A DNA stretch of 64,000 nucleotides, from contig NC_060258.1 in NCBI RefSeq assembly GCF_921293095.1, positions 310,001 through 374,000 of the forward strand, written 5' to 3'. Position numbers and translations under genes: made by a program. The DNA comes from Ischnura elegans (taxonomy: Eukaryota; Arthropoda; Insecta; Odonata; Coenagrionidae). Each line of letters starts with the position of its first letter. The stretch's first letter is position 1. The notes under the pieces are model-generated. The model was not told the DNA's origin, did not search any database, and saw only the letters and a program-made list of their open reading frames with translations. This document shows, piece by piece, positions 20,435 to 55,715 of the stretch.

Positions 20435-20515
20435 CTCGTTGTCCTCACGAAAACCAACAACTTCTGAACGATTTCGCGAACTTGAGCCACGGGTTTTAGG
20501 TCTTCCTCTAATCCC
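20435..20515 (-). CDS. Phase-2 exon B of the duplicated gene family
   Basis: An 81-bp exon (one base, 26 codons, two bases) between acceptor ttatttccatag and donor gtaagaac. Its paralogue at 51,915-51,995 has the same length, the same phase and the same splice positions, and the introns on both sides align, so this is well supported as coding. Residues conserved in both copies include LKPV, a V two residues on, an I and QK, then V..R.T, an amphipathic helix-like pattern. By eye about 22 of 81 bases differ between copies and about half of the residues change. No known family. Confidence 0.7.
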
Positions 20516-21687
20516 CTATGGAAATAAGAAAATTATGTTACTATGATTATGATAACATAGAAGAAATGCAAAAAATGAAAGAAAGAGATTAATCATGATC
20601 CGTTCACGATTATCAGCCCACATGCTCACTAGTCCAAAAGACAAACCTAATGACTTGTCAACAATTCATTCATCATGTAAAATTTTTTAAATTAACAGTC
20701 CATATATACAACATTCTTATTAAATATGTAAATTCTAATTAGAAAGTATTTTTTCGATGGATCTATAGAAAACAATAACCAGTAAACTCAATTTCAGAGG
20801 CCAAAAAGTCATAATATGGTGTTATTTGAAAAGACTCATCTCCCAAAAGGACGTTGAGGACAAGAAAAATAATGGCTTAATTTTAATTAAAGCAGAAACT
20901 TGCAAACTCCAAGTTTTTCATGAAAAATTATTGCCATATTCCCACTTCAAAGACGCAGGCCCAAAGCTAATCAACAGCAGCAAATGCCATTCACTGAGTT
21001 CATTGTTAGTCACTGCACTTATCCCTTCCTGGGAATAATAACAATTACTATTGTAATGCAAGTGATCCAGTTCATTGTCAGTACCCAGATAGCACCAAGT
21101 AAAAGAATTATCCGTTTCTTATGGTTTTCTTACGGAAAAAATTAACACATAAGTCCTATAACTAATGCTGTAAATTGATTGAATACAAACAACATCTATG
21201 GAAGTGCTGAAAGTTTGGCATTCATTTTGTCAGTACTCTGGTTTTGTGTCGGCCTGGTCGCAAGAAACCCATAAAAAGCTTACTTGATAAGCGCCTTCTT
21301 TATTTCTTCTTTTCGACTAATCTCAACGGCTTATAATGTGCTAGCTGGGTAATTATACTTTCAATGCGAACGTGGATAACTTCATTTTAATGCCTCAAAA
21401 TGTGTGGAACGTCTCTGCAGTATCACCAAAACGAGAAGATTAATGAAAAAAAATTGTAATTCATGATGAACAAAGCTTTAAAATGCTTCGAGAACAAAAA
21501 TTTTTTTCATGAAAAGTATAAAGTCCAAATGTTTAAATTCAAAATAATGGAACGCTGTACTTCCTGATAGGTATTCAGACTTCTGGTTTAGCATCACATG
21601 ATTCATGCTCAAAAAAGCCACACGAGTTCATTAAGTGTGCATGACACACATAAATGGACAATATATCGAGGAGAAGTTAACACTCAC

Positions 21688-21753
21688 CAATTGGTCATTA
21701 TTGCTCTCTGGATTTGAGAAATAACCACAAACAAGATGGTGCGCATCCTCATT
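21688..21753 (-). CDS. Phase-2 exon X of the duplicated gene family
   Basis: A 66-bp exon (one base, 21 codons, two bases) between acceptor gtgttttcag and donor gtgagtgt. The paralogue at 54,246-54,311 has identical length and splice sites and well-aligned introns. The encoded segment (starts MRMRTILFVVISQIQRA) keeps hydrophobic spacing and an RA pair with the paralogue, but only about 5 of 22 residues are the same. The exon differs at about 24 of 66 bases, clearly more than the adjoining intron. Confidence 0.65.
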
Positions 21754-22305
21754 CTGAAAACACAAAAGGAACACCAAACAAAATTAGTGTGAGATAACGA
21801 TGTTCCAAGAGATATTTGCATGGCAGGTTTTCGCCATAGCGCTGTGATGTCTATGGCCATAACTTCACATTGCATGAGAGTAACATTCTGTATACTTTAA
21901 ACAAATATCACTAGAAGCTGAAGAGAATGGTATTAATAGAAGAATAAAGAATAAAATTTTAAAATAATTAGAGGGTTACCTTTTAATGTTTCGATTTTTT
22001 AAAGAAATATATTTTTATTAAGGTTGGATGGTTAATAATAGTATGTACCGAGATGTAATGAAATTTATAGCAATTATTGTTCATATAATTTTGATAAAAA
22101 TCACAAACTCGTTCTCTACTATATGGTATTCCATTATACGTTTCCTAGGAATATCAACTTATACTTACACCACTACATTGTTTAGTTAACGCGGCCCGGG
22201 TTTCAATAAGTAATCATCATCTTCAGACGCAAATTATGATGTTCTTTTCTTATAAGTGTTAACTAGCTAACGGAGGAAGAGGATGATTTTAAAAACGGAC
22301 GTCAG

Positions 22306-24492
22306 GGGCCTAAGTCTGTAACTTCGTTTTCTCCCGAGTTGGGAGAAAAGAGACTCGTGAAGCTCCAGTTTCATCCAACTGAAGTCTGTAACTCGTTTCT
22401 CCCGGTAACGGAGAAAACTTTCTCCCAGTAACGGAGAAACTGACTCTCCTGGAGAGTATCTTTCTCCCGACTGAAGTCCGTAACGCGATTTGGAGAAACT
22501 GACGCGCCCTGGACGGGAGCTTCGGAGTCACCCGCCCGGGACCCGGCGATTCATTTTCTCCAAAGGAGAAACGAGGAAAATACCAATGGCGGACCGTTGT
22601 GGGCGATCGTACTGCGGTTCTAATTGTATTCTAATATGGTTTTTTACGTATTTGTGACAAAATAGAACACGAAAATGCATTCTTCAAGTTAGGCAGGCAA
22701 CGTATGTAGTGTAATTAGTGACAAGGATAGAAATTTTTGTATGGCTGCATTTGCAAGGAAACTACGTGCAGTGAACTTTCATTGTGCCTCTAGTATAAGT
22801 GAACAAAATTTGTGTCCTTAGTGAACCCCTTAGTGAATTGATTGCACATAGACGATGAAGTAAAGAGTGAAGTGTGTTGTGAATGTAACATCTTCGACGA
22901 AATTATTTCGCACGTATATAACTTAGGCTACGAATCAACTGTATACATTACGATGAAAGGTATCTAACTATTGCGAAGGGGATATGTTTCATATTTGAAC
23001 TAGTCTTACTTTAGGGATACATCGAACGCCTGTTAATGTTCATTCGTTTGTTCGCTTCTAAGTTCTGTTTCATTTTATTACGTATTGCATCTATTACCAA
23101 TTCCCAATTCGTTGTGAGATGTGAGCTTGGCAATGTTTACATTTCACGCATTTCGTTGTGTTGTTGTTTGTTTTTGTTTTGGTCGTGTTACGGTGAGAGT
23201 GATAGTGAAATTCGAAGTTTGTTGGTGTTACAATTTGTTTCAACCTATTCATTTAATTGTCTTCGCAATGTTAATATGAAATAACGTAATCTGATTCTAA
23301 GTCGTTAGTGATGAGTAGGAAGTGAGGTGTAAAGAATCCTTTCGAACTTCAAGGAGTGCAAATTCTTTTAGTGTGTGCAAAGTGATTGGAAAACCGATTA
23401 TCATGTTTTATTAGTGTTACATAATAGTGTTTTATATTTATTGTGAGCCAAGATATATATTGAAACAGTTGAAAACGAATATAATGATTATAAGTATTAA
23501 AAAGATTGAAATGTGTGCGTTGTAGTGCTGTATGTGATATGATGAGCAATAAATATGTACAAGTAAGGGTAATTTTGCTTTGTTTTCTCTATATATACCT
23601 CTAGAAAACCATTTTCCCCATGTTTTCGCTATTCTACGCTGTCAGTATTTGAAATTTTTAAAAGTAGCGAGGCAGGTTGTTGTGTTTCCTAAACTATAAC
23701 ATTTTGGGAGATTGTAACATATGTTACTAATTGCTCGCACGTAGGTATTTGCAAGAATAAATATGTACCATTCACACATTTATCTTAACGTTATTTTCTT
23801 TACGATTCTTTTCTGCATAGTAAAGTTTTTCAATTTTCTTTTTCCCCTCCCACATTGTGGATTTCAGCTTTTCGAGGATAAATGCATGTAATATTGACGT
23901 TGATAGTTATGTTTTTCCATACTCATCATGCATTCACCAATGAAAGTAAGCATCCGAAGTGCAAAAAAATATGCCATATATATCATCAATGAATACAGCG
24001 GCCGTTTGTATACAAGATTACCTGCATCTAAAACATAAAAATGCTTTGGTGTTACGCATTAGTCTCTCCTTTTTCAATGGTATATCATACTCTTTTGCGT
24101 GTACTAATGAACAAATATATCTGCGATTGGATTTAAATCGATTTATCCACTATCAATTATAATTTCGATGCATCAATTTCTTTTATTTGAAAGTTTAACT
24201 TTAATGATGAACGAGTAGCCCTTATTACAGGTGAGAATCGTTTGATTTCCCGCTCGTTTTTTTATTTGAAACAAAGCTTTTCTATTGGTTCTTCACGGTA
24301 TTGCCGGCTTCGGATTCAATATTTTTCATACCTATCTGCTCTTCCTATCCGATACCGAGAATTAGAGTTTACTCCGGTAGCGGCCAGGAACTGATGTTTT
24401 CTCCGCCAAGTTACGGACTACAGTCGGGAGAAAACTACGGGAGAATACACTTTCTCCGGAGAAAGGAGAATTCAAGTTACGGACTTAGGCCC
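22306..24492. mobile_element. 2.2-kb non-autonomous TIR element with 3-bp target duplication
   Basis: The ends are near-perfect 19-bp inverted repeats (GGGCCTAAGTCYGTAACTT), followed at both sides by several subterminal copies of gtaacggagaaa/tttctcccg-type motifs. The flanks are cag on both sides. The paralogous block near 54,870 (acagacgccagcatagggac) is an empty site at exactly this point, which fixes the ends and the CAG duplication. The interior is AT-rich without a transposase; a short ATG frame in a good context at about 22,587 (starts MADRCGRSYCGSNC) is not recognised. Superfamily uncertain: a 3-bp duplication fits few groups, and the termini are not the Harbinger or CACTA ones I know. 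Confidence 0.75.
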
Positions 24493-24639
24493 CAGAATTA
24501 GGGAAAAAGATGGGTAGATATATTCGTTTGTGGGATGGCTGTCCTCACTTTCAAATTTTTAAAACTTTCCAAACGCTCTCTAGATTCTTATTCACGACAG
24601 TCTGTGCCAAATTATTAATCATCATTTAAAAATCGCTTC

Positions 24640-24890
24640 AATGGAAGGTGCATAGTAAGTGTTAACCAAAATCAATTTTATCATCTCGGTTATTTTGTAA
24701 GCCATTAAATGTTCTTTCTTCCTGACACCGAAGCTTCTTCCTGTCTGCCCCACGTAGACACCATTGCAATCGGTGCATTTCAATGTATAAACTCAACATC
24801 TGTCTCTTTGGTCAATCGAATCCTTACATGTTACAAGCAGTCTTCTCAGAGTGACACCCTGAAATTTTTTAAACGACTTAAGTTATCAAA
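24640..24890 (-). pseudogene. Penelope-like GIY-YIG fragment
   Basis: The minus strand reads CTDCNGVYVGQTGRSF followed by VRKKEHLMAY, the first part of the GIY-YIG nuclease of Penelope-like elements, with stops just upstream. It is near the left edge of a block inserted relative to the paralogous region at 54.9 kb. Confidence 0.7.
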
Positions 24891-24999
24891 ATTGGTACTT
24901 TATCTACGTTAACACATTCATAAACAGATTCATTCGCTGGTAAGAAATAACCAGGGGAGGCGAGAGTAATTGTATCATCGCGCATTTTCAGTTGTAATT

Positions 25000-26690
25000 C
25001 CTACACATAGTGTTTACGATTCTCTCATAATAATCAGATACACTCGTATTTGAAATAAATTTGGTGACCATAAAGAAATTAAAGTAATTTTGATTCGTAA
25101 TGAATCATAGTTTTCAAATTTCTAATTATTCGTCCCATAAAATGTGGGAAATAACGTAAATAAAAGCACCGACGCTTTCGTTTCAGCGAGAGTGGAACCA
25201 CTACTAGTATAAAGACCAGTTGGAAATAAATTGGTTTCTTCTCAGTTTACCTTTGGCAACTTAAGAAAAACATCATTGTCGGCTAATACATCCCACCTAA
25301 ATATATCACAACAAACTCCAGAGTTAGCGCTGTTAATAAGTTTGAAGAAATGGGAGATATCAATAGGATAGTTTCCTTCTTCAAAGAAAACGAAAGGAAT
25401 TGATTGCGATTCCTTACCCACCATTAGTGTAGTCATAATATTAAAATTATTTGGTTTTAGAAACCCGAGTTTAGACTAATATCAATGGTCAATTTTAATC
25501 TAATTTGAAAAAGGCCAGATTGGCACCCATACGATGCCACTCCACTCCACATGACGTCACAGGGACGTAGATGCTCTACAGGTTGTTAAGGGTTTTACAT
25601 CGTCTGTGATTACCAATGCATGCATGTGGCACAGAGCTCAGAGAAATATTTCTCAATAATCACTTACTAAAATTGCCTATGTCCGGAAAGTTTTCTTCGT
25701 TTGATAGGGTACTAATAATGTTTGTTCAAGCCAAGCGTTTCCTGCTAGCAGGGTACTCTGCTACCTGCTAGCTGCCTTCATCGTATTGGCGCTCATATCC
25801 TCGTCCCAAGGTCACCTCACACGGCGGCAGCCAGAACCAAAATAGCATCATACAGGCTTTTCCCTGCATTCATTTATAGCCGTCGCATTTTCGCGCGCTT
25901 GAAAATTTTCAATGTTTATTTAATCACGAAAAATAGATATCGCCATTTCAACACCTAAAAGCGTGAAATGCGTGCTTCATTAGTAATAATATTTTGATTT
26001 AGGAAATAAAAATAATGGTAAAAAATCCTATTGTGGTCATAATCGTATACTTATTAATAGTATTACATCATCATTCAAATACATCAACATCTGCATACTA
26101 CCCTGCAAGTACCTCAATAGGTGTTTGGCGGGGGTTTTTATGGCACCTGCCTTTTACACACAAAAGGAAATACTCTTTCAAAATTACGACTAGCATTTAT
26201 TAAGGTCTATAATGTGAGTTTGAAAAACGAATTCCCATACCTATCCAAAATATCTCTCTTATAAATGGTATGAGACCTGGAAACCTGGTGAGGCCCTAAT
26301 ATGTTGTTCTCTGCGTCGCTCATAAAGATTTACATTCTCCATATCTCACGCAATATAAGCAAGCCTAGCGCGCAGCTCCCAACCTAATTAGTTTAACATC
26401 TGTGTAACGCCTTCTGTACGCCCGCAGCAATTTTTGAGTGCGAAATGGCACCTATATTTTATTTTCACGACCAAGAATATTCTCGCAGTACGCTTGACTA
26501 CTTATTCAGAACTCTGCCTTCACTTTACCTGTCGCTTTTATGTTGAAACTATCCACCGCATATACATGAAGATATTTGTCCACCTTAGCAACAAATGTGG
26601 CACCATCAAATCCAGTCTAGTCCAGTAATAATACTTAAAAAAGGACCTTTTAAGTATGTTGTAAAGTTTTCTAACAATATTTTTTTGATT
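25000..26690. other. Unassigned, partly GC-rich repeat-like DNA
   Basis: A 65-codon minus-strand frame at 25,242-25,436 is unrecognised and ends before a weak donor (gtaaac). Around 25,540-25,900 a GC-richer stretch with cacatgacgtcaca and gcattttcgcgcgcttg has the look of a transposon end, but no partner sequence is in the window. The rest is AT-rich. Confidence 0.3.
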
Positions 26691-26699
26691 ATTCTTTTA

Positions 26700-27930
26700 G
26701 ATTATAAATACACTCTTGTATACTTTTGAACCAATTTCTATAGCACGTTTTCTATTCCGATTGAGATATTACCAAAACATACATTTTTAACGCATCAACA
26801 GTCATTTTGGCGTCGAAAATCATTGATCACGTAGTTCATTCTTCAAGATCGGAAAAAATGGAATCATAGGGGGCCAAATCGGAACTTTTTGGTGGATGAC
26901 CCATCAATTCGATGTTTTGACCGGTTTAATATTCCGTTGTTTGGGCATAAGTGTGGGATCTCGCATTGTCACGATTATGGATGATCCTACGTCGCTGGTT
27001 GCTTTTTCTTATTTATTTAAAGACTTTTGGCATACAAATTGTTGTGTACCATTTAGAATTGCCCGTCCTGCGATTTTCCAACGGCACTGGTGCCACATGC
27101 CCGTCTATCCAGAAAAAACAGGCGACAAATTCCTTCATAGTGTTTCTGGCAACAACAACTTTTGTTGGGTTTGGCTCATCTTGGAAGACTCACACAGTCG
27201 ATTATTATTGACAGACGGGCTCATATGCATAGAACTAAGATTTTTCACCAGTGAAATTGTTATACACGGCTTTTGACGCGCCGTAGTTGTATTTTTTGAG
27301 CATTTATTGGCAAAAATCGACATGAGATTTTATTGAGCGATTGTCAAATTATGTGGGATCCAACGCGCACAAATTTTTTTTCACGGCGAAAATTCGTGTA
27401 AAATCTCGTTTTTGCTTGTCATACTAATGCCTCAACCTCCCAATATATCTTATGACGATATGTATTTATATCTTCCTCTACAGCATCGATGTTTTTTGGC
27501 ACAACAATCGATGTTGGACGACATTCTTTAAATCCGTCCTTCAGTAAACTAAGGCCGAGAATGAAATTAATGGACCAGTGATATACAGTGCTTTTGGTTG
27601 GCTCAAAACAGCCAAAAGTGTTAGTAAGTTGGTAGATGCACTGTTCTTGAGATAATTTACGTCGAAAGTAGTAGTCAATCATCGCGCGAAAATTATCACG
27701 AGTAAATTCCATTTAATGCCTGAGTTGAAATTTTGAATTTACTGCATGCAACACAAATAGTGCTCGCACTTCCAGACTTCCGTGTACGTATATTGTAAAA
27801 AAAATCAAATATTACGATGTATGCGTCAGATGGCACCAAGGAACACCATTGTTGCCAATTACGGATACATATATACCGTAATGGTTCAGACACAATTACG
27901 AGGTGCATTCAATTAGGTGCATTAATTTCC
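26700..27930 (-). pseudogene. mariner-family transposase pseudogene
   Basis: The N-terminal frame (ATG at 27,712) reads MEFTRDNFRAMIDYYFRRKL and continues through LSQEQCIYQLTNTFG and NIDAVEEDI, the paired helix-turn-helix region of mariner transposases. Downstream the catalytic part is broken over several frames: LTIAQ, TGEKS followed by a stop where the first catalytic Asp motif (GDESW) should be, VAPVPLENRRTGNSKWYTT, a HNRDNARSHT-like second Asp motif, and IELMGHPP with DLAPYD for the third. Upstream, a TIR-like acgaggtgcattcaattagg is at about 27,899; the other TIR was not found. The element is dead. Confidence 0.8.
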
Positions 27931-27949
27931 CTTTGCCCGCTCAATTCCG

Positions 27950-30068: not shown

Positions 30069-31094
30069 GCCGTTTTCCAATCCACGTAGTATGCACTCAT
30101 TCCCTCGTTCCCTTTTTCCCTGCACCCTGCTCCCTTACAAATGCTCTACTGGCGCCATAAAGTGTGAACGGAAATAATGCGAACTATTGGCAGTAACGAA
30201 ATGTGAAGCGCAGGGTCAGGTTAGGACACCTTGTGTTTGATTTAAGAATTAATTTCACCCTGCTACTCGGTTTGTTTACGTTTTTAATTTAGACTGCTAA
30301 GTATTTTGACTTCTCTGGCACCCATTGGACGCTCTCTCTTCACATAATAAACAAAAAATTATTTATAACTCCAGTTCAAGATTTCTGAGTTTTCCATTGC
30401 CGCCATTTTGACGTCCACTTCCTACGAGGGGAAGGTAGTGAGGGAGCATCCGCGCTCCCTTGCTCACTTACCCTTCGTTCCCTTGCGCCCTCGCCGATTG
30501 GATCCACCCTTGCTGTCGTCACATCCGTGCCTCTGTTGTTTTTTTTTTCGCATCCGAAATCACACGGACCAAAAATCATTGTCTTCTAAGGAAAATATCA
30601 AATCACACGAAAACAATTGAAGCGTGTTTCATCCCTACCTCGTCTCACCAACTGACCGTTTTTGGCCTACCTGCTTCAATTCTCCGTTTCTAGGTTACAA
30701 ATGCTAGGAGAGTGACTTTCTGGGCCCGAAGATAGCTTCGACAATTAGATGATATGCACGAGATTTAAAAAAGAAGTAAACCAAACGAGACGCATTTCTG
30801 ACGATACTACAGTTTATTTTTCAGCTCTAATTGATTGCCACTCAGTTTTCTATCTACAATTCTACAATTACACTTTACTGATATGCAACATTGTCCAAAC
30901 AGCATAATTTTCAAAGAAACAAGCGCAGCATTAACCCCTCAAACAATTAGAGACGGATTGGAAACGCCAACTACATATATCACGTAGCGCGCCTGGCTTC
31001 GCTTTGAAGGCAACGACGTCATTGAAGCAAGGTCTGACTTCTTCATCCTTGTGTCCCTCATTTGTGGCCTTGTTGTTTGAAATACGGAGGGAGC

Positions 31095-31134
31095 GCGCTC
31101 CTTCCTCTCCACCTCTCCTTTACGCGCTCCTTCC
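31095..31134 (+). repeat. 29-bp tandem duplication split by a MITE
   Basis: The unit starting at 31,095 (gcgctccttcctctccacct...) begins again at 31,124, and the second copy is interrupted after ctccttcc by the MITE at 31,135, resuming at 31,388. Removing the MITE and one 8-bp duplication restores a second unit that differs from the first at one base. Confidence 0.75.
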
Positions 31135-31387
31135 CAGTGGCGTAGCCATGGGGAGGGACCGGACCCCACCCCCCGAAATATAAAAATGCAGTTATTGTCC
31201 TTCACAAAAGAAAACAAAATATTGAAAAATCAGGAATTTACAAAAATTTTCTTTGACAAATTAAGTTTTTCGATTATAAAAAGTGTTAAAATTAGTTTAA
31301 AACCCATTTCTTAGTGCCCGGTTTTTTCAACAATTTTCCCCCCCGGTTTTGGATCCCCCCCAATTGAAATTCCTGGCTACGCCACTG
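31135..31387. mobile_element. hAT-type MITE 1, 253 bp, perfect 8-bp TSD
   Basis: Terminal inverted repeats CAGTGGCGTAGCC and its complement bound 253 bp. The flanks are ctccttcc at 31,127-31,134 and at 31,388-31,395, an exact 8-bp duplication. CAG...CTG-type ends with an 8-bp duplication are the signature of the hAT superfamily. The element has no coding capacity and would depend on a transposase elsewhere. Empty-site proof comes from the neighbouring tandem unit. Confidence 0.9.
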
Positions 31388-31762
31388 CTCCTTCCCCTCC
31401 ACCTCTCCTTTACCACGCTTTTGCTGCCCACTCCTTCCTCATGCTGAGCGGTTGAGCACTTCGTCGCACGTGACGTTAATGCCGTTTTAAATACTGTTAA
31501 TTGTGTTGCTGATTGCGCAGTTGCAATTTAATTTAATGATACACCGATAAAAATGTCTTTCATTGTGTATAAACATTTCCATTGAGATAATGAGAACCAA
31601 TGAATGCCGTGTGCATGCTCTGTGGCGTAAATTATTGTGAGGATGTGCTAAATCCACCTCACCATACTGAAGCATTTTCGGATGAAACACAAGTCCGTAT
31701 GCGATGAGAAAGTAAAATTCTGGGGAAACATGCGTGAGGAAAATTTGAATTCAGTCGATGGC

Positions 31763-32010
31763 CAGGGGGTAGCCAGGAATTTTGTTAAGGGGGTCCAAAA
31801 TCAGGGGGGAAAATTTTTAAACAACAGGTTACAAAGGAGAGGGTTTCAAACTAATTTTAACGCCCTTCTTAATAGAAAAAAACTTCATTTATCAGAGATT
31901 CAATTTTTTTTCATTTTTGTAAATTCATGATTTTTAAATATTTTGCTTCCTTTTATGAAGGAAAGTAATTGTGTTTTTATATTTCGGGGGGTCCTCTCGC
32001 TACGCCACTG
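31763..32010. mobile_element. hAT-type MITE 2, 248 bp
   Basis: Same family as MITE 1 in opposite orientation: left end caggggGTAGCCAGG, right end GCTACGCCACTG. The flanks gtcgatgg and gtcagtgg match at 6 of 8 positions (one extra base at the left), a decayed target duplication. It abuts repeat R1, and the same junction occurs at 9,866. Confidence 0.75.
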
Positions 32011-32325
32011 GTCAGTGGTTCATCCTAAGATTTTTCCTACTTTCATTTCCAAACCCAAGCGTAACACTTTAGGCCCTGAGTATGTAAGATGTTTTTAAAA
32101 AACAACTTGAAAGCCCATAAATTAATTTTTAATTTATAAAAATATTAAAATGTGTATGAAAATCTAAAAAGCATTCCATTGATTGTATGTACCCACAATA
32201 AACTTGAATAATGACTTTGTGAAATCGCAGGAATTGGAATGTGCATTTGGATTCGAGAATATCCGATTTGAAAGATCCAGGCAGAAAGGCTCCAAAAATC
32301 CTGGATCCGTCCATCCCTAGTTAAT
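32011..32325 (-). repeat. Dispersed repeat R1, copy 2
   Basis: Reverse-complement match to 9521-9865, ending with the R1 head ggatccgtccatccctagtt. It directly adjoins MITE 2 with the same 8-bp junction as the copy at 9.87 kb. Confidence 0.7.
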
Positions 32326-32407
32326 TTATTCCATTCAATTCTTAAATTTTAATGACAGCAATACTACAAATAAATCAAAATTCCACCTGCTATAAGGAGT
32401 AAGAATC

Positions 32408-32495
32408 GATGGAATCGGAATCGAGAATCGGGAATCGATTTGAAGGAATCGAAATTGGAATCGGAATCGAAAAAAAGTGGAATCGACTCATCCCT
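32408..32495 (+). repeat. Degenerate (GGAATC)n microsatellite
   Basis: Runs of gaatcg/ggaatcg variants followed by actcatcccta. A similar 'gatggac/catccct' end is present in repeat R1, so the microsatellite probably belongs to the end of a dispersed repeat. Confidence 0.7.
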
Positions 32496-32500
32496 AGTTT

Positions 32501-33600: not shown

Positions 33601-34190
33601 AAACGATAGTACGTCACTGTGCACCACTGCTTCTCTTTATTCTCGTCAGCCGAAAACATTTGGTCGACAGTCAATTTTCTCTGCTCTTTAAATATCAATT
33701 CGTCCATTAAACTTAGTGAATAACCGTTGGCTATAGCAACTTTTTTAATGGTGATTTTTAATTTCCCTAAGTCTTCATTTAATTGCTGTAAGCTTAACAG
33801 GCGGTGAATCATGGAATGAAAACCTAAAAGTTTGTGTCAGTAACGGCGTATTGAGCTTGCTGAGATGACATGATCGGTACAACCTGGTTTCTGAAAAAAA
33901 TGAAGAAATAATGCTGGTATTTATCGAGTTTCATAGTAAGATTTAGATAATGTAAGCAATGGTTGGTGTCACTTTCAAAGGTAAATGAAATTGTAGGATG
34001 GATATCATTCAGAAAACCCAAGAACATATCCGTTGCCGATCAGTTCCATTCCAAAGCACAATTAAATCGTCAACGTACCGGTATACCACAGATTTTAGTT
34101 GCCTGTTTCTTGAGCTAAAAATATTTACTTCCAAATAATCAACCAAAATATCTGCCACTCTGAGAAAACTGCTTGTAAAATGCAAGGCTT
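33534..34190 (-). pseudogene. Penelope-like RT fragment
   Basis: Minus-strand frames in order of transcription: VADILVDYLEVNIFSSRNRQ, YRYVDDLIVLWNGTDRQ (YVDD is the RT catalytic motif), then in a second frame FLNDIHPTISFTFESD and YLNLTMKLDKYQHYFFIF, then a third frame MIHRLLSLQQL with ITIKKVAIANGYS and KLTVDQMFSAD. Frameshifts separate the three. The GIY-YIG part is absent on this strand. Confidence 0.75.
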
Positions 34191-34380
34191 CGATGTACCA
34201 ATAAGACAGATGTGTAGTGTATTCAATGAAATGCAGCGATTGCAATGGTGTCTACTTGAGGCAGACGGAAAGAAACTTCTAAGTCAGGAAAAAACATTTA
34301 ATTTCTTACAGAAATAAAAAAGATGAAAAAAGTAATTTTGCTAAAGACTTAACACGCAACTGCTATAGGAGCAATTTTAA
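34190..34380 (+). pseudogene. Penelope-like GIY-YIG fragment, opposite orientation
   Basis: The plus strand reads VYSMKCSDCNGVYLRQTERN, then a stop, then VRKKHLISYRNKKDEKSNFA, matching the GIY-YIG domain of the same PLE subfamily as at 24.7 kb. It meets the minus-strand RT fragment tail to head, so the two halves of a PLE are inverted relative to each other here. Confidence 0.65.
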
Positions 34381-34935
34381 AATGAATTATGATTGTTAGA
34401 AAATTAATTAAATATTATGCAACGACCGGCTTTCCGCGACTTAGGATCTTGAGATCATATGGGAATTTCAAAAATTATTTAATGTCCGGACAGCAACCTG
34501 ATAAACGAATATCTTTACTCATCCCTTCCAGTAATCCGTTTTTTAATTTACCCTCTTCTTCCACTTAGTGACTAGGTGACAATAATACGATAAATGCATC
34601 ATAATACGCGCTTAAGATGACTGTCACTCATTGAAACCCAGGTCACGTTCACTAAACAAAGTGTTGGTACAAGTGAAAGTAGGAATTCCAAGACAACGTA
34701 TAATTTTGACAATAAATATTATGATAATCCAGTCAATTTATCATTTTTTCCATTCCAAAAAAAAGAAAATGTCATTAACGGTACATATTGGTTCTTTAAG
34801 GTTGATCATAAAAAATTCACAGAATAAATGATTCAGATTCATTTTTGCGACGGTATACCCTATTCCTGAATTCGAACCTAGATGATGAAAAATTACATCT
34901 AGCATTTAAAATATAATATTAAGAGCCTAACTTAC

Positions 34936-35019
34936 TTATCAGAAGGCCACATTTTATCCCACATCTCGTTTATAAGTTCCAATTCCTCCTCAGAAATCAC
35001 ATCCTTATCCACAGCAGTG
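34936..35019 (-). CDS. Phase-2 exon A of the duplicated gene family
   Basis: An 84-bp exon (one base, 27 codons, two bases) between acceptor tgtttattacag and donor gtaagttag. The peptide starts TAVDKDVISEEELELINEMW and ends PSDK. The paralogue at 55,181-55,255 uses the same splice sites but is three codons shorter; shared positions include a D-x-D, an I, L and a Trp-x-x-Met. The introns on both sides align between copies better than the exons do. Acidic, likely helical segment; no family recognised. Confidence 0.7.
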
Positions 35020-35465: not shown

Positions 35466-35483
35466 CAACTCTTGTTATCTGGT
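35466..35483 (-). CDS. 18-bp phase-2 microexon M
   Basis: Between acceptor gaaaaggcatacag and donor gtaagttttac lies an 18-bp exon that adds one base, five codons (PDNKS) and two bases. The second copy at 55,698-55,715 has the same splice sites and one silent difference, so the microexon has been kept in both blocks even though other exons changed strongly. It lies directly upstream (in transcription) of exon A in both copies. Confidence 0.6.
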
Positions 35484-36399: not shown

Positions 36400-36660
36400 A
36401 ATCCTTTATAACCTAGAGCTGCTTTGGCCTGAAATCCAATTTTAATTTTTTTCATTTTGAAATATTTTAAATTTTGCACTCAATAATTATTACGGTGGCT
36501 GATAAATATTTCGTCATTAGACCATGCACCACAAAATAATATGTAGTTCACACATTTTCTCAAAAGAGCGGAAAATATACGTATAATTGATGTTGCTTAG
36601 AGGAAACATTGGGTTATAATGGGTTACATTTGATATTTTTAATAATTGTAAAAATTTGAT
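36400..36660. repeat. Intronic block duplicated at 48,905-49,160
   Basis: Matches 48,905-49,160 in the same orientation (ttttgcactcaat, aaaataatatg, gggttacat/gggttaat blocks). No open exon is conserved between the two. It indicates that the duplication of this locus includes introns beyond the exon pairs listed. Confidence 0.6.
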
Positions 36661-37108: not shown

Positions 37109-37189
37109 CTTAGCTTTTCGGTAACTTCAATCAGTACCTTCAGGATTTCAACCATCAAATCATGATCAGGTTTGTAAAAGGGGGTGTTC
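37109..37189 (-). CDS. Phase-2 exon E of the gene family
   Basis: An 81-bp exon (one base, 26 codons, two bases) between acceptor ataatattgcag and donor gtaagctc. The peptide begins NTPFYKPDHDLMVEILKVLI and ends EVTEKLR, an amphipathic leucine/isoleucine-rich helix close in pattern to exons B and D. No second copy was found in the window; support comes from splice sites, phase and composition. It lies between two Gypsy fragments but does not read as RT. Confidence 0.6.
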
Positions 37190-38171: not shown

Positions 38172-38648
38172 TCATATCGCGTTGACATTCGGGTGTGTCT
38201 CACCTGGCCTTCCTACAGGCAGTTGGGATTCGTCTAAACGTCCGAGCATTATTAAGAGTCTTTCATACGTAGCAACCTCAGAACTTCGGAGCAAATACTG
38301 GGCGTATGGTGAGAAATGTGGTATTAATAACGCCACTATCTCCTTCTCATTCTCTGGCTGCTCGCAAAGTCTTAAGGCGGCGATTTTTTGAGTCACGTTT
38401 TCCTGCATACTACTTCTCGGCGTCCTCCCATATATACATGACATGACTTTCATCTTATAATTAATACGGCGCTCCTTACTCCAGTACCGCGCATAAAATA
38501 CCCGTTTAAAATCTTCCATATCCTCTGGGAAAGGATATATTTTGTCGGCCCATACCTTCCCACCTTCAACTAGCATTTGATAGAAAAATCGCAATCTAAC
38601 TTCACACGGGATGGCGTGAACCGAATAGTAATTTACATCCCCACTCAT
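38172..38648 (-). pseudogene. Gypsy-like Gag (capsid-type) segment
   Basis: An uninterrupted 158-codon frame, MSGDVNYYSVHAIPCEVRLR, with FKRVFYARYWSKERR, YGRTPRSSMQENVTQKIAAL and IPHFSPYAQYLLRSSEVATY, follows the pattern of the capsid-like Gag of Gypsy elements. No zinc knuckle is seen in frame. It lies upstream of the protease remnant on the same strand, so 37.4-40.1 kb is one internally damaged element. Confidence 0.65.
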
Positions 38649-40992: not shown

Positions 40993-40999
40993 TTTTTAT

Positions 41000-42217: not shown

Positions 42218-42289
42218 CTTGAGTTATTCCATTTTGTTTCCTCTAGCAACTTCTTAAGCATGTCCAGCGTTGAGAGAAAACAGTCCTTC
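42218..42289 (-). CDS. Phase-2 exon D of the gene family
   Basis: A 72-bp exon (one base, 23 codons, two bases) between acceptor gactttctgttgcag and donor gtgaatat. The peptide KDCFLSTLDMLKKLLEETKW is a clear amphipathic helix with leucines at regular spacing and one cysteine. No second copy recognised in the window. Spacing and phase fit the exon series C-D-E-M-A-X-B on this strand. Confidence 0.6.
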
Positions 42290-42299
42290 CTGCAACAGA

Positions 42300-44570: not shown

Positions 44571-44572
44571 AA

Positions 44573-46517: not shown

Positions 46518-46697
46518 TGATCATCCTGTCCGTCTGTTTTAGACGCTGAATTATCAGCAATTGAGGAGGTTGGGTCTTCTTGCATCAGCGGCTGATGCTC
46601 TCCTGGACACGGGAGTAGAGACATTGGCACTCCTTCCTCCATGTCTTCGATCGACCTCCGGGAAGCAACGGCTGATTTCTTCATCATGATGGAACTC
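46518..46697 (-). CDS. Predicted 180-bp phase-2 exon (exon G)
   Basis: Between acceptor ttttcactcgatccag and donor gtacgta the frame has one base, 59 codons and two bases. The peptide includes MMKKSAVASRRSIEDMEEGV, PMSLLPCPGEHQPLMQED and an acidic tail DNSASKTDGQDD. GC content and codon use are unlike the AT-rich surroundings. It lies between exons C' and C on the same strand with the same phase, so it may belong to the same gene. The alternative donor two codons later (gtatga) would end in phase 0. Function unknown. Confidence 0.5.
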
Positions 46698-48904: not shown

Positions 48905-49160
48905 CACTTAAAACTTCATAGCCCGGAGCTGCTTAAGGGAGAATTTAAATTTCAAGATTTTTCATCCTGAAAAGATGAAAACTTTGCACTCAATCATAAT
49001 TTTCGAGTTTTATAAGTATTTCGTAAACAAAATATGCACCAAAAAATAATATGCAGTTTAGATATTTCCTCAATAGAGCTGAAAATTTATACGTTTTTGA
49101 TGTTGATTTGAACATTGGGTCATAATGGGTTAATGTAGTTAATTTTTCAGAGCAAAACTT
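48905..49160. repeat. Intronic block duplicated at 36,400-36,660
   Basis: Same-orientation partner of 36,400-36,660. Its position, between exon C' and exon G, suggests that the second gene unit also once contained the E-to-M intron. Confidence 0.6.
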
Positions 49161-49515
49161 AGCCACTCAAAAATATCAGTCGGACACTAAGTCAAAATAT
49201 TATTAAACTAATATGGTGAAACTCTGACTATTATAAAAACTAAGAAACAGCGTCTCCAGATATTTCGACCCTCCTTGCTCATTGCAAACAGTGTCAATAG
49301 TTATGGAAGGTCGGCCATTTTGTGCAGTGCTATCAAGTCTGTTGGATCTCATTCCGCCCATGTATTGCGCGAATTTCCTCCAGGATAGCATAACCCCACA
49401 TTGGGCTACACTGTGAACATGCGTCTCATTCAAATATAGGTCAGATTGAATAAGGGATGTATGTGGAAAATCAATTGGTAAATCCAGAATCACACGATAA
49501 ATTTGAAATTCACAA

Positions 49516-49997
49516 ATTCAGCAGACTGGTTTTCGGGGTTACTACCGCGTAGATTCATCTCTGCAGACGACAGTTTCGCCGGCATTGCAGCAGGCTTCTT
49601 CAGTTCAATGATGTGGACGCCCGTCTCTTATACATCCCGTCGGAGGCCGATGTCTTCTCATTGGCTGGTTCAGGAGGCCCGGGTGGCTTCTCATTGGTCC
49701 GCATCTCCCGGCTCTGTCCTGTCTGGCTCCTGGTTTACTCTTGAGGACTCTTCCCCATGTGTTAGCGAGCTCGTATCCTTCCTCCCTATTGAGGTTGTTC
49801 GGTGTCTTAATTATATCTATATCTTCCCTAATGATCCGAGGGAAGTATCTCTTTTCATGGGCGGGGTGTAAAAGAGACGGGCGATACCACGGATCTCCAC
49901 TTAATTGACCTGAAGAAGCCTGCTGCAATGCCGGCGAAACTGTCGTCTGCAGAGATAAATCTGCGCTGTAGTAACCCCGAAAACCAGTCTGCTGAAT
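49516..49997 (-). mobile_element. Foldback Penelope-like 3' end with inverted terminal copies
   Basis: Arms 49,516-49,630 and 49,871-49,997 are inverted copies of each other (attcagcagactgg at the outer ends, gcagcaggcttcttcag inside). The minus-strand frame between them reads EKRYFPRIIREDIDIIKTPN, NLNREEGYELANTWGRVL, the C-terminus of a Penelope-like protein. Penelope-like copies are known to carry terminal repeats in direct or inverted orientation; this is a severely 5'-truncated example with the inverted type. The sequence ctgaagaagcctgctgcaat with gcgaaactgtcg resembles the motif region where PLE hammerhead ribozymes lie. Confidence 0.75.
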
Positions 49998-50270
49998 CCT
50001 CACTCACCACACCGCGAAAGCCTTCACAAGGATTTCATAAGTCCCAAATGATTGATAGCTTAAGCGATAGATTTTCAGGGACGAAAATAGTGATCGCTCA
50101 TTGAGATATCATTTTATAACTCACACGACCATTCCCACCGTTCTTTAATCAACCGATTACTCCGTCAATTTCGGTATTCACCACTTTCATTGAATTAAAA
50201 GCCTAGAGTGACAATACAATCGCTCATAGAGGCCTTGGGTTCTCCCTGGATGAAAAAGGGTACAAGAGAT

Positions 50271-50560
50271 CAGGGGCGCAGCTAGGAATGAAGGCTGGGG
50301 GGGTTTAGGTGCCGGGGTGTTTGGGGGGTATGGAATACCAACCAGGATAAACGGTAGGTGCGAGATTAATAAATTTCGGAATTTTAAGATAAATGGTTCA
50401 AATTGGTGAGTTTTACGGCTTTCTGAGGGATAATTTAATAAATCTTACACTATTCTATTAGCAATATCAATCCAATTAATTAAAATGGATTAAACTTAAA
50501 CATTTCTCTAAGCTCTGGGGGGGCGCTCATCTCCCAAAAACCCCCCTCGCTGCGCCACTG
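50271..50560. mobile_element. hAT-type MITE 3, 290 bp
   Basis: Ends CAGGGGCGCAGCTAGG and CTGCGCCACTG belong to the same family as the MITEs at 31.1 and 31.8 kb. The flanks caagagat (50,263-50,270) and ccagagat (50,561-50,568) match at 7 of 8 positions, again an 8-bp hAT-like duplication. Confidence 0.85.
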
Positions 50561-50615
50561 CCAGAGATGAATTAAGGGAGAGATAAATGGACGGGGTGGT
50601 AATACATAACGGGGT

Positions 50616-51336
50616 GGTCCTCTTCCCTGATCCGCTAAAATATTTACCATGGTTAATGATCGTTATGTACTGACCAGTGGATACAATTTAAAATACTGAG
50701 GCTTTAAGTAAAATATTGAGGGAAACATGCACACAAATATGTGAAAATAACAAAGAAAGTTGGATACATTTTCCCGGGTTACGGCTGCATTGGTTCGTTT
50801 TAACGGACTTAACCCGCTAAGCTGTTATCCACGTCATCTTAGCCTCCGTACCAATAGAGGTATTTCATGGAATAGAAATCAGTCTTGGACTTCAGTTTAG
50901 AATATATACTTCTTTTCTCATATTTTTCAAGAAGCTTTTTTTAATTACAAAGTAGAATTATAATCATCCAGACTCACCCATTGTTTGATGAAGGGTGAAC
51001 GCTTTCCTGGCGTTCAGGCTCTGCTCCTTGGCCTCTCGTCAGTGTATTATCATCCACTGCCTCCAAAAGGTGGTGATCGCTTTAAATATAAAATCATTTT
51101 CCACATTAGATGATTTCTCCTTGATTGTTTGAGTTGGCAGCTTAAAAATTATCAAAATATTTTTTTTAAATGGACATACAAAAATAAACATACATCTGGG
51201 TCCTTTAAAAAATGACTCGTTTAGAATAAAATTCACCCTGGGCAAGAAATATGTTCTTTCAAATCGAGGACTCACTTTCAAATCTTAAAAAAATATAACA
51301 TTAACCACTGCCGCCAGAGACTTGAAGTTAAACATT
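50616..51336. repeat. Duplicated block around exon C' (partner 44,573-45,299)
   Basis: Second copy of the exon C block, including the intron sequence on both sides of the exon. It starts just beyond MITE 3. Confidence 0.8.
50978..51079 (-). CDS. Phase-2 exon C' of the duplicated gene family
   Basis: Copy of exon C, 102 bp, same acceptor context (tatatttaaag) and donor (gtgagtct). The peptide starts DHHLLEAVDDNTLTRGQGAE and ends SSNN. The frame has stayed open despite about 22 base changes, which argues that both copies have been under coding constraint. Confidence 0.7.
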
Positions 51337-51857
51337 CTGCAAAAATCCAGGTAAAGACAAATAACAGTGGTAGGGAGATCACTAATAGAGCAAGAAAGCC
51401 ACTTTGGCTACAAACAATGCTGAGTACCACTTTCAACTTTACATTAACAAAGTAAAAACAGTCTTGATTCAAACTCTAAAACGAATTTTCGGCGGCGTGT
51501 TTTCTTTCATGAAGAGTGACAGCAACCAATCAGACTTTGCCAAAGATGATTTGAGGCTCAAAACTAGGTGTGTGAGATGCTCTCTATGAGTCCTCCAGTC
51601 CACGAGCTCTCTTGAGTCAAGGCCCAACAACTATGCGTAGGGGGTCGTTGAATTGTGTGTCTGGTTAGAGTAAGCTCTGGACTACTTATGGGTGGATATA
51701 TTTGGCAATGTAATTAAACAAAGGCTGTTGAATTTTAACTCAATGGTAGATTGTTTTTGATAAACCACATGCATTTAAATAATGCTTTAAGTCCTTCCAT
51801 AGTCAGGCATACAAGCTAACTGCGGCCAAACCAAAAACGAAGGAATTTTGAATGAAA
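51337..51857. other. Intron-like DNA, nothing assigned
   Basis: No conserved exon between exon C' and the start of the large duplicated block. The short plus-strand frame at 51,404-51,589 lacks family resemblance. Confidence 0.35.
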
Positions 51858-51914
51858 ATGTGAAGGTAATTTATTATTTTTTTTTTAAATAACCTTGAAA
51901 AAGTATGCTCTTAC

Positions 51915-51995
51915 ATCGTTTTCCTCATGAGCACCGATACCTTCTGGAGGATATTTAGTACGTGATCCACGGGTTTTAGGCTTTTCTCTGGTCCC
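51915..51995 (-). CDS. Phase-2 exon B' of the duplicated gene family
   Basis: Copy of exon B, 81 bp, acceptor ttattttcccag, donor gtaagagc. The peptide starts GPEKSLKPVDHVLNILQKVS and ends VLMRKT. Length, phase and splice positions equal those of exon B while half of the residues differ, and hydrophobic positions are kept. Confidence 0.7.
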
Positions 51996-52314
51996 CTGGG
52001 AAAATAAGAGAGTGCTTTCACTTTGATTGTGTATCATAGTATAGAAGAAAGGCAAAAAAATGAAAAATAAATAGATTAATCATTATCCTTTCACGAACAT
52101 CAGCCCACAGGCTCATTACTCCAAACGACAAACTTTCTGACTTTTCAACACTCTAATGATCAAGTAAAATTTTTTGAAAATTAATTGTCAATAAATACAA
52201 CATTCACATACTATATTCAAGTTATGTTTAGGACATATTTTTTCAATGAACCCATAAAAAACAATAACCAGTAAAACTAATTTCAGAGGCGTTAAAATAA
52301 AAAAAATGGTCTAA

Positions 52315-53723
52315 AGCCGGTTTCCCACCGTCAAATTTACATCAAAATATTTGCATAAAAATTTTTGTCCAAATATTTTGATGCAACTGGACGTGTGTCC
52401 TACGATGCATCTCATTTTGATCAAAAACAAACGAAAGACGATATTTATGTAAAAAAATTTGGAAACTTGTGGAGGTGAAGGATTCTGTCTTTTTTAGCAG
52501 GCAAAATTGTCTGAACAGGCCTCTTGAATATTAAAGAGGCGAAAAAAAGAAAACAGAAGGAATGCTGAACTTGGCCTTGGCTGGAAAGGGGGTATGAAAA
52601 CGTTGGAATAAGCATGCTAAACATTTTGGAGGAGGAGTTGGTCGCCGATGTTCCCGTATATTATCGATAATAATTGACCATAAGTGAGGATATTTACATG
52701 ACCCTTATCAGCAAGGTTGAGGGCAGAATAATACGGCAGGATACAAACGTGAGACGGTTTATTCCCTCGGTGAAAATATTATTAATAAATGATGGACATT
52801 GTGGTTGAGAAGATGTTATGAATAGTGCTGTAAACGTGCATTTAAATCACATTTTTCCTCTCCTAATCAAGCAGTTGCTAAAATAAGGTCCTTACCTACA
52901 ATAATAGTGATAGGTATAATCGTCATTTCATATTTGTCATTTCCCCAGCTGCTCGCTTGCTCGGATTGCATGCCCGCCACAAAGATAACCTGTAGAATTC
53001 GGTCTCGATACCTTAAGTAAATCTTTTATTATTTCCAAAACATTTGTATTGCGATTCTCAAGATCGCACCTTCTTATTAAATATCAACTCATTATTAAGA
53101 ATTTCCTAGTTGAGAGTTTCCATCGCCTATCGAGACCGATTTTTGCCCATTTTTACTTTTAGGACCACACCAGGCGATGAAATAGACGATCATGAACGTA
53201 TATACATATATTTGAAACAATTTTATGTGAATTCACTTCATGGTATGGTGATATTATAAATTTAGAACTAAACCTTTCAGTAGTGTTTATAGTACTAATG
53301 AAAAAACTCAACCGGTTTTGATCTTTTCATGTCCTTATCTAGAGGTTAACGATAACGACCTGAAAAGGTAGAAAACGGTTGGGTTTTTAATGCACACTGT
53401 GTGGAATACAACAAAGTTTATTTTTGTGTCTATAATATGCATAATTATTAATTAAAATACTCATGCATAGGTAAGATAAATATTAAGTTTAACCTATTTG
53501 GCCTGTGTGTCAGCACTTGGCGATGCCTTTTTTTAAGGCCCTGTGATTGGTTGGTTTCATCCAATTGGATGAAAATTAAGGACCTGTCCTATACATTTGT
53601 ACAAATTGGTGATTTGTACAAACGATAGGACCAAAAGCAAGTTGGATTAAATTTTGACCGTGGGACAGGGTGCGAGTCAGTTGCATCAAATTTTGATGCA
53701 AATTTGACCGTGGGACATCGCCT
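52315..53723. mobile_element. Harbinger-like non-autonomous element, 1.4 kb, TSD TAA
   Basis: Imperfect TIRs start AGCCGGTTTCCCACCGTC at the left and AGGCGATGTCCCACGGTC (reverse complement of the right end) and continue with caaatttRcatcaaaat. The flanks are TAA on both sides (52,312-52,314 and 53,724-53,726), the TWA-type target duplication of PIF/Harbinger elements. Copy Q of the block (about 20,817, atggtgttatttg) is the empty site. Subterminal repeats of gatgcaa/tttgcatc follow the TIRs. No transposase is readable inside. Confidence 0.8.
53298..53391. repeat. Long imperfect hairpin inside the Harbinger-like element
   Basis: Arms 53,298-53,333 and 53,357-53,391 pair over about 35 bp with few mismatches (aactcaaccggttttgatc against its near-complement), leaving a loop of about 23 nt. 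This could be a nested MITE or a miRNA-like hairpin source. Confidence 0.6.
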
Positions 53724-54245
53724 TAAAGTTGAAATGACACATCAAACAAAAGGTTGTTACATTGGGCTATTTAGCTTTTATTATAGCTATTAATAAAAAC
53801 AGAAACATGAAAACTCCTAATAGTTTCATGAAACATTACACGCCATATTCCCACATCAAAAACGCAGGCCCTAAGCAAATCAACAGTAGTAGAGTTCAAT
53901 GTCAGTCACTGCACTTATCCTTTCCCGGGAACATGATTTACTATTGAGATGCAGGTGATCAAGTTGATTGTCAGTAACTATATTGTCAATGCAAACGCGG
54001 ATAGCTTCACTCTAATGCCCCACAAGGTGTGGAAGGTCTCTGCAGTTTGACCATTGCAAAAAGATATACGACAAAAATGTTAAATTCATGATAAAACTAA
54101 GGTTTGAAATTCTTACGGAACAACGACGTTTTCATGAAAAGTAAAAAGTCCAAATGTTAAAAGTCAAAATAATGAAAAGATTGTACTTCTTTATAAACAT
54201 TCATACATATAATGGACAATATATCGAAGAGAAATAATTACTCAC

Positions 54246-54311
54246 CACATGGGCAAAGTTGCTCTATGGAGTCGAGTGAGCACCTCTAACAATAATTTGC
54301 CCACAATCTTT
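54246..54311 (-). CDS. Phase-2 exon X' of the duplicated gene family
   Basis: Copy of exon X, 66 bp, acceptor ttgtattttcag, donor gtgagtaa. The peptide KIVGKLLLEVLTRLHRATLP is a textbook amphipathic helix; only about 5 of 22 residues match exon X but the hydrophobic periodicity and the terminal Trp are retained. The adjoining intron is visibly more similar between copies than the exon. Confidence 0.65.
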
Positions 54312-55180
54312 CTGAAAATACAAAAGCAACACCAAACGATATTATTGTGCGAGGATTAGAGTGTTTCAAAGAGATATTTGCATGCCAGGATTTTGTCATA
54401 GCAGTGTGATGTCGATGAACATAACTTCACATTACACGAAGGTAATATGCTGTTAAATTTAAAATAAATATCACTAGAATCTGATGAGAATGATAATAAA
54501 GAAGAATAAAGAAGAAAATTTAAAAATAATTTCGGTGTTACCTTTTATTTTATCGATTTTTAAAGAAATATTTTTTTTATTTTTTAAGGTTGGATGGTTG
54601 ATAGAATCATGGACAGAGGTGTAACTTTTTAAAGCAAATATTTTTAATATGATTTTTATAAAAAAATCACCAACTCATTCTTCACTATGAGGTATTCCAT
54701 TATACGTTTTCTTGGAATATCACCTTACACTTACACCACCACTTTGTTAAGTTAACGCAAACCTGGTTTCAATAAGCAATCATCATCTTCAGGCACAAAT
54801 TAGGTTGAATTTATCATATGTCACCAAGTTATCTAACTGAGAAAGAGGATAAATTTAAAAACAGACGCCAGCATAGGGACAAAAGATGGGCAAAGATATT
54901 TGTTTATCGCTTTGCTGTCTTGAATTTATAATTATTTACTATTTTGAAAATAATATTTATGTCAATTAACTCATTCTATGATATTTCCATTCCCTAAAAA
55001 TGGAAATTTCATTAATATTGGGAGTAAAAATTGGTTCTTTATAGATGACCACAAAGAATTTAACAGAAGAAATAATCCAAATTAATTTTTGCGACAGTAT
55101 ACCCTAATATTGTATTGGGACATAGATATCGAAAAATTACACCTGGTATTTCAACTATAGCATTTTGCGCTCTGACTTAC

Positions 55181-55255
55181 CTATCAAAAGAAGTCATTTC
55201 TTCCCACAGAGTTTTCAGAAGTTGCACTTTCTTCACAGGAATCAGATCCTGATCG
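55181..55255 (-). CDS. Phase-2 exon A' of the duplicated gene family
   Basis: Copy of exon A, 75 bp (one base, 24 codons, two bases), acceptor ttgtttatttcag, donor gtaagtca. The peptide starts DQDLIPVKKVQLLKTLWEEM and ends SFD. It is nine bases shorter than exon A without loss of frame. Splice-site contexts are almost identical in both copies. Confidence 0.7.
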
Positions 55256-55697
55256 CTGAAATAAACAAATAACAGCACATTGTCTTCAAAGGCAACACTG
55301 ACTTCCACGTAAAAGACCACTGAACTGCACTCAAAATTTCATAAAATTCAACAAGAACTGTGATGTTGCAAACAGCATAGTTTATTATATCATTCAAGAA
55401 GATATCAGCAATAAACAACCAGTTACAAAACATAATAATGCTTGGTAACAGATATGTATTTGCATACAATGAACCCCTCCAACACTAATTTAAAAATCAC
55501 AATCAATGTTACCTTGTAGTGCATGAAAATCAATGCCATTACAACAAAAGAACTAATAGAGCATGCTAAATTTTACAAATTAAGTTGGCATGGTGGTTTG
55601 AACGGTTTACCAAGCCCACACAAAATATTTGGTTGAGATTTTCTGTTGAAATCTGTCTCATATCCATCTTTATTTTCACAGTCACTGTAAAACTTAC

Positions 55698-55715
55698 CAA
55701 CTCTTATTATCTGGT
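55698..55715 (-). CDS. 18-bp phase-2 microexon M'
   Basis: Copy of the microexon at 35,466-35,483, again encoding PDNKS between aaaaggcatacag and gtaagttttac, with one synonymous change. It is the most upstream exon of this series found in the window; the first exon, with a possible signal peptide, was not recognised and may lie beyond 56 kb or outside the window. Confidence 0.6.

Follow-up and report, generated by a model that had tools for sequence, protein, structure and literature searches.

A gene of short phase-2 exons on chromosome 13 of Ischnura elegans and the multicopy family to which it probably belongs

We analyzed a stretch of 64,000 nucleotides of the damselfly Ischnura elegans (chr13:310,001-374,000; the window), in which an earlier reading made from the letters alone (the sequence-only reading) had seen thirteen short exons of a duplicated, possibly secreted gene family. 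The window belongs to a contig of 21,320,372 bases, in an assembly of 1,722,721,009 bases in 110 contigs; the reference genome is described as having 110 scaffolds and 1,723 Mb, with 21.32 Mb in chromosome 13 and 118.12 Mb in chromosome 8 (PMC9975421), and contig C8 (chromosome 8) here has 118,119,564 bases. On the minus strand, the window holds a gene of nine exons running from 46697 to 5770, whose eight introns are all in phase 2 and whose joined exons give 275 codons and a stop; its seven internal exons span 66-102 bp. We consider it likely that these exons make up a single protein-coding gene, and that it belongs to an undescribed family specific to the lineage, with some thirty copies mostly on chromosome 13, a probably intracellular product of 275 residues, and a history of segmental duplication and exon exchange. 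Duplicated blocks are visible in the window by self-comparison. Exons 3, 8 and 9 were placed in the window by means of RefSeq proteins. Because the sequence-only reading gave letters without coordinates, its letters are assigned below, presumptively, from its end points, exon order and size range of 18-180 bp. The features are as follows.

46518..46697, minus strand: exon 1 (reader's G), 180 bp with a short 5' untranslated region and the start codon, MMKKSAVASRRSIEDMEEG..., phase-2 donor GTACGT; start of P0003
44947..45048, minus strand: exon 2 (reader's C), 102 bp, acidic, Gln- and Ser-rich segment; in P0003; 18 copies aligned
42218..42289, minus strand: exon 3 (reader's D), 72 bp, KDCFLSTLDMLKKLLEETKWNNS; in P0003; the NCBI model runs through the donor to a stop
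37109..37189, minus strand: exon 4 (reader's E), variable and amphipathic, 81 bp when counted from an AG 18 nt 5' of the usual acceptor; P0005 begins inside it; 23 copies
34936..35019, minus strand: exon 5 (reader's A), 84 bp, hypervariable; in P0005; 31 copies
21688..21753, minus strand: exon 6 (reader's X), 66 bp, hydrophobic or amphipathic segment; in P0005 and P0008; 16 copies
20435..20515, minus strand: exon 7 (reader's B), 81 bp, amphipathic segment; in P0005 and P0008; 14 copies
9018..9104, minus strand: exon 8 (outside the earlier finding), SDHGYILRLQREVSNHTWRFNHLDEYKK, 87 bp with a phase-2 intron on either side; in P0005; a relative in the chromosome 8 copy L025 has AG and GT
5770..5854, minus strand: exon 9 (outside the earlier finding), terminal exon with stop TGA; C terminus of P0005; known from the window copy alone
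55181..55255, minus strand: exon 5 of a second gene copy (reader's A')
54246..54311, minus strand: exon 6 of this second gene copy (reader's X')
51915..51995, minus strand: exon 7 of the second copy (reader's B')
50978..51079, minus strand: a further exon 2 (reader's C'), with exon 7 of the second copy on one side and exon 1 of the window gene on the other
35466..35483 (M) and 55698..55715 (M'), minus strand: 18-bp microexons of the reader, not supported

Eleven of the thirteen symmetric phase-2 exons first proposed hold in their splice sites and in their frames: each is a multiple of three in length, opens with one base and closes with two bases of split codons, and lies between AG and GT. 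The exceptions are the 18-bp M and M', for which the acceptor AG is present in 6 of 11 copies (donor GT in 11 of 11) and which are absent from the RefSeq protein P0005, where the exons on either side are joined. The proposed size range stands at its upper end, with the 180 bp of exon 1, and fails at its lower end, the smallest supported exon having 66 bp. A GTAAG at exon 7 that could be read as a stop is ruled out by P0005, and the phase-2 frame of this exon is open in all aligned copies. For the second gene copy, exons 1, 2 and 4 fall outside the window, near chr13:390.8k, 389.2k and 378.5k, and within the window tblastn detected neither an exon 8 nor an exon 9 besides those of the nine-exon gene; an exon-9-like match at 57017-56973 was dismissed as weak (E 0.08).

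The genome was searched with five exon blocks, the 40 best candidates of each being scored (for exon 5, the best 40 of 66), and all copy counts are therefore lower bounds. Exon 5 occurs at no fewer than 32 genomic places, 25 of them on contig C13, two on C14 (one partial), one each on C15, C16 and C64, and two on chromosome 8; among the matches listed, most of those of all five blocks are on C13. These segmental copies bear out the idea of a duplicated gene family built from short symmetric exons. The alignments cover 31 of the 32 places for exon 5 (L020, an incomplete row, was left out), 16 places plus the window and L015 for exon 1 (among at least 47 match rows, including pieces and partial hits), 15 places plus three more for exon 2 (among at least 42 match rows), 16 plus seven more for exon 4, and 16 and 14 copies for exons 6 and 7 (L016, at a locus end, left out of exon 7), while exon 3 was compared in the window and L015 only, which have the same splice sites. 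AG, GT, a length in multiples of three and an open phase-2 frame are all present in 31/31 copies of exon 5, 16/16 of exon 6 and 14/14 of exon 7. In exon 4, GT, length and open frame are kept in 23/23 copies and AG at the usual site in 21/23. Exon 2 has AG in 18/18, GT in 13/18, a length divisible by three in 18/18 and an open frame in 17/18, and exon 1 has AG and GT in 18/18, a length divisible by three in 15/18, an open frame from the ATG column in 17/18 and the ATG itself in 16/18.

Of the indel types in the six exons, over 14-31 copies, 19 of 20 in coding sequence are multiples of three, compared with 15 of 96 in the non-coding DNA that flanks the exons (Fisher p=1e-11). As a control, none of 11,334 overlapping intron window-frames of 60-84 nt, from the alignments of exons 2, 4, 5, 6 and 7, is open in frame in all copies (best fraction.93); exons 4, 5, 6 and 7 pass this test, and in exon 2 a stop interrupts one of the copies. 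On the reverse strand, a scan of two blocks found nothing longer than 33 bp. The claim that the exons are not chance open frames is thus upheld by these two comparisons, which also speak against a decaying pseudogene or repeat family. Such a family would fit the setting of the copies amid transposons, the nearly neutral look of exons 1-2 (below), and the losses of some donors and of one acceptor pair. Indeed, the exon 2 donor is lost in 5/18 copies, L079 has a stop, L101 has lost the start codon and L099 both frame and start codon. These losses weigh against our reading, and we take some copies to be decaying; for the family as a whole, we regard decay as very improbable. Nor do the exons appear to be part of a mobile element's open frame, as no Pfam family is over cut-off and, among the best 40 of 66 candidates, exon 5 is found only on C13, C14-C16, C64 and chromosome 8.

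The gene is present in the NCBI annotation, as fragments. P0005 (LOC124170359, 149 residues) is exactly the last 149 residues of the 275-residue product, and P0003 (LOC124170360, 115 residues) corresponds to exons 1-3, with its final codon completed by the first intron base; since each matches one part of the nine-exon gene, NCBI holds the gene as two loci. Five further I. elegans "uncharacterized proteins" are by sequence copies of the window gene, and in the literature library searched no paper was found that mentions any of four of the NCBI loci for this family. Two genes could indeed be what exists, one encoding 114-138 N-terminal residues (exons 1-3, ending at a stop in exon 3 read-through) and the other starting at a Met inside exon 4. 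This division is where RefSeq splits P0003 from P0005 and where five N-terminal models end; furthermore, the nearest relatives of the 5' half differ from those of the 3' half, and for exon 1-2 copies near C13:1.26 and 2.01 Mb, C14:6.56 Mb and C17:6.64 Mb the best 40 of 66 candidates include no neighboring match to exon 5, which counts against a single gene. However, the residue before the stop is R in all five of NCBI's N-terminal models, the outcome expected if an AG|GTGA donor were read through unspliced, and this donor is visible at exon 3 in the window DNA and in L015, which is outside the five models. Exon 4 lacks any Met in 6/23 copies, so that the start placed there by NCBI is not shared by the family, and its usual acceptor is kept in 21/23. 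In many copies, as judged by eye, the blocks of exons 1, 2, 4 and 5 are collinear within some tens of kilobases. In the window copy and its closest sister, exon 4 has lost its usual acceptor; an AG located 18 nt upstream would keep the frame and may be used instead. Six copies chosen for having fragments of exons 1, 2 and 4-7 could be joined to 186-194 residues without a stop, although the usual exon 4 acceptor is lost in two of them and the exon 2 donor in one. Together, these observations suggest that exon 3 is spliced to exon 4, in one gene rather than two; the two-gene arrangement we hold to be a possibility, the less probable one.

Translation appears to start in exon 1, because L087 and L093 carry frame-shifting indels just 5' of the ATG yet are open from the ATG onward. 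The exon 1 product has an acidic, Ser-rich N terminus and was not flagged in a scan of the window minus strand for hydrophobic starts (no signal-peptide predictor was run). A secreted effector of saliva or venom, similar to the aphid bicycle genes or to the schistosome micro-exon genes (MEGs), had been the favored interpretation of the sequence-only reading, and short symmetric phase-2 exons, many copies and fast change would all suit it. A start codon in an exon without evident hydrophobic signal does not; neither does the absence of anything over the Pfam cut-off, of a convincing NCBIfam or PDB match and of protein database entries other than seven I. elegans proteins, and we give secretion hardly any weight. 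The signal-peptide first exon expected upstream of 55.7 kb is not where the window gene starts, its first coding exon being at 46.7 kb. The second copy does have its first exon upstream, near chr13:390.7k, and it is of the same kind (L087). Two other candidate start exons were rejected: MFNFKSLAAVV near 45.3 kb and a signal-peptide-like open reading frame (ORF; MKNLEIAFLLIAVLG) inside a dispersed repeat.

That the encoded pieces match no known family is borne out by the searches. No Pfam family reaches the cut-off, and the hits in NCBIfam and PDB are weak and single; sub-threshold matches to Pfam P_C10 (E 0.086), ankyrin chains (E 0.12-0.55), an FTZ-F1 chain (E 1) and, in one member, NCBIfam SurfProtP46 (E 0.015) were dismissed. 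The relatives in the protein database are the seven I. elegans proteins (P0003, P0005 and the five copies), with none outside this species at the sensitivity used in the databases searched. Four joined exons returned nothing at E<=1, and the joined 275-residue product nothing at E<=10, in a search that excluded proteins under 0.55 of its length, P0005 among them. The helical moments of exons 4-7 (.554,.369,.395 and.479) exceed those of shuffled peptides (.300,.296,.307 and.332), in a test that is too generous because the peptides are related; the values are.386 against.345 in exon 1 and.239 against.280 in exon 2. The AlphaFold model of P0005 is an all-helical chain with helix limits near the exon limits. 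Its confidence is poor (predicted local distance difference test score, pLDDT, 46; predicted template-modeling score, pTM, 0.28), too low for fold comparison, which weakens the structural part of our reading. A helical fold with about one amphipathic helix per symmetric exon (exons 3-8) is nevertheless predicted.

The rate at which the exons change was estimated from non-overlapping sister pairs, as nonsynonymous (pN), synonymous (pS) and intron differences. In exon 5 (10 pairs), pN is.113, pS.060 and the intron value.026 (71.3/630, 8.7/144 and 40/1546; nonsynonymous against intron p=4e-15), so that differences are about four times as frequent at its nonsynonymous sites as in its introns; in other exons the excess is smaller or absent. 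In the pair L010e/L1718, 25/84 positions differ in the exon and 4/136 in the flank. The values, in the same order, are.101/.037/.055 in exon 6 (6 pairs),.095/.104/.055 in exon 7 (5 pairs),.042/.087/.031 in exon 4 (7 pairs),.058/.072/.046 in exon 1 and.040/.044/.047 in exon 2, and exons 4-7 pooled give.091,.071 and.039 (nonsynonymous against intron p=2e-14). The exons thus outpace the introns, clearly in exon 5 only and less in exons 6-7, and a dN/dS above 1 is not established. Diversifying selection may be the cause, although several features of the data speak against it. The exon 6 figures depend on the pairing, another one giving.090/.062/.060, one pair supplies 24.5 of the 28.5 nonsynonymous changes in exon 7, and in exon 4 pN is below pS. 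Pooled nonsynonymous and synonymous rates do not differ significantly (p=0.20), and exons 5 and 6 are the only ones with pN above pS, in neither case at a significant level (p=0.07 and 0.075). In exons 1-2, pN about equals both pS and the intron value, indicating little amino-acid constraint. Furthermore, synonymous sites, too, change faster than the introns (p=0.004), an excess not expected from plain selection. This last point, together with an exon swap between L043 and L048, would be expected if the excess came from local hypermutation, exon-limited gene conversion or homogenized introns rather than from selection on the protein, a mechanism compatible with a real gene. Changes in exon 5 are nonetheless distributed as 31, 30 and 19 over codon positions one to three in 258 codons, with nonsynonymous above synonymous change at the p=0.07 given above, and we think this account rather unlikely.

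The copies are mosaics. Exon 5 of L048 is identical to that of L043 (0/81 differences), yet the flank of L048 is nearest L042, an exchange the size of one exon, and between W1 and W2 the flanks differ at 1/68 positions at exon 1, 14/152 at exon 2 and 42/171 at exon 4. Exon 1 is doubled in several copies, as paired matches, and the doubled form is present in RefSeq P0007, which agrees with the proposal that such exons can be duplicated without breaking the frame. What the data show are the exons, their phases, the number of copies, the mosaic structure and frames that hold despite rapid change. We propose that copies arise when segments of ~20 kb or more, carrying nested transposons, are duplicated. 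The N-terminal part (exons 1-2), which is acidic and almost the same in some copies, would be joined to a more variable helical part, on which selection for novelty would then probably act. Because every intron is in phase 2, exons could be gained, as in the doubling of exon 1, and exon-sized or half-gene pieces exchanged without a break in the frame.

Several further elements lie in or around these copies. A pair at 36404-36626 and 48914-49132 (~225 bp) could be taken for the reader's C and C'. It was ruled out as a dispersed repeat on many chromosomes, the true C and C' being a different exon; the repeat, of ~230 bp and ~80% identity across many chromosomes, encodes a signal-peptide-like ORF in the copy L028:9232. 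The intron between exons 5 and 6 contains insertions at 22306-24492 and 30069-32500 that are absent from three sister copies on chromosome 13, and a long inverted repeat (34153-34704 versus 22133-22305 plus 24493-24856), also found in other gene copies. By eye, open frames resembling LINE (long interspersed nuclear element) reverse transcriptase, Penelope-like and gag-like proteins lie at 57651-58358, 59050-59457 and 61254-62267 (plus strand) and at 14649-15077 and 38172-38648 (minus strand). Many contigs also carry nuclear pieces that resemble mitochondrial COX1 (at least 43 match rows), and for one of these the invertebrate mitochondrial code was used in the reading. Distant relatives of exon 2 (71-78%) at C13:1.62-1.67 Mb and C17:2.4, 8.2 and 9.2 Mb form another subfamily, with no exon-5 match nearby among the best 40 of 66 candidates. 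On chromosome 12, a lone relative of exon 1 (C12:43777450-43777759) has lost its start codon and is frameshifted, and two gene copies lie on chromosome 8 (C8 near 22.63-22.66 and 22.74-22.76 Mb); these may possibly be founders of the chromosome 13 family.

Families of uniform phase-2 short exons are known as effectors of parasites or gall makers, and the bicycle proteins have an N-terminal signal peptide as a family feature. The aphid bicycle genes are described as a large multicopy family of about 17 exons per gene, with short internal exons nearly all in phase 2 and fast amino-acid change, of which sequence searches find few members outside close relatives (Stern and Han 2022, PMC9168663). 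The window family is similarly multicopy and rapidly changing, with phase-2 introns throughout, short internal exons and no relatives found elsewhere. In contrast, it has nine exons, no evident signal peptide, about one predicted helix per exon (in a low-confidence model) and a damselfly host rather than aphids and related Hemiptera. The characteristic Cys-Tyr-Cys motif, not visible to the sequence-only reading either, is indeed absent by eye from the 275-residue product and the six joined copies, and no sequence relation between the two families was found. Schistosome MEGs have mostly very small symmetric exons and a signal peptide. Compared by description only, they share with the window family symmetric exons whose skipping or gain leaves the frame intact, whereas its supported exons measure 66-180 bp and no signal peptide is evident. 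In the gene array of snake small serum proteins, exons reportedly evolve faster than introns; again by description, tandem genes and fast exon change are common to both, but the snake proteins are secreted and those of the window family apparently intracellular. The nearest comparison, LOC124170359 plus LOC124170360, is the window gene itself.

Chromosome 13 is described as having reduced recombination and transposon enrichment along its length, and the female morph locus as lying in the first ~1.5 Mb of unlocalised scaffold 2, outside this window (PMC10781644). Judging from their sizes (18.8, 11.9, 11.1 and 10.3 Mb), contigs C14-C17 are probably the four unlocalised chromosome 13 scaffolds of that study. 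By analogy, the protein may act as a recognition or antagonism module in intracellular conflict with a virus, a transposon or chromosome drive, a role that we find possible while leaning against it. A fuller and still more doubtful version makes it a recognition-type family acting inside the cell, every symmetric exon of which would be an interchangeable helix. A shared 5' half would be combined with swapped, fast-diversifying helix exons in some thirty copies on a transposon-rich, low-recombination chromosome that also carries the female-morph locus, and the family might be one party in a genetic conflict on that chromosome. The family is concentrated on the chromosome to which the female color polymorphism of the species maps, and as it is annotated in fragments only, it is easily missed in expression studies. 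Damselflies are free-living predators. If our reading is true, the same exon layout in such an animal, without an evident signal peptide, would suggest a general device for fast protein diversification and not a mark of secretion.

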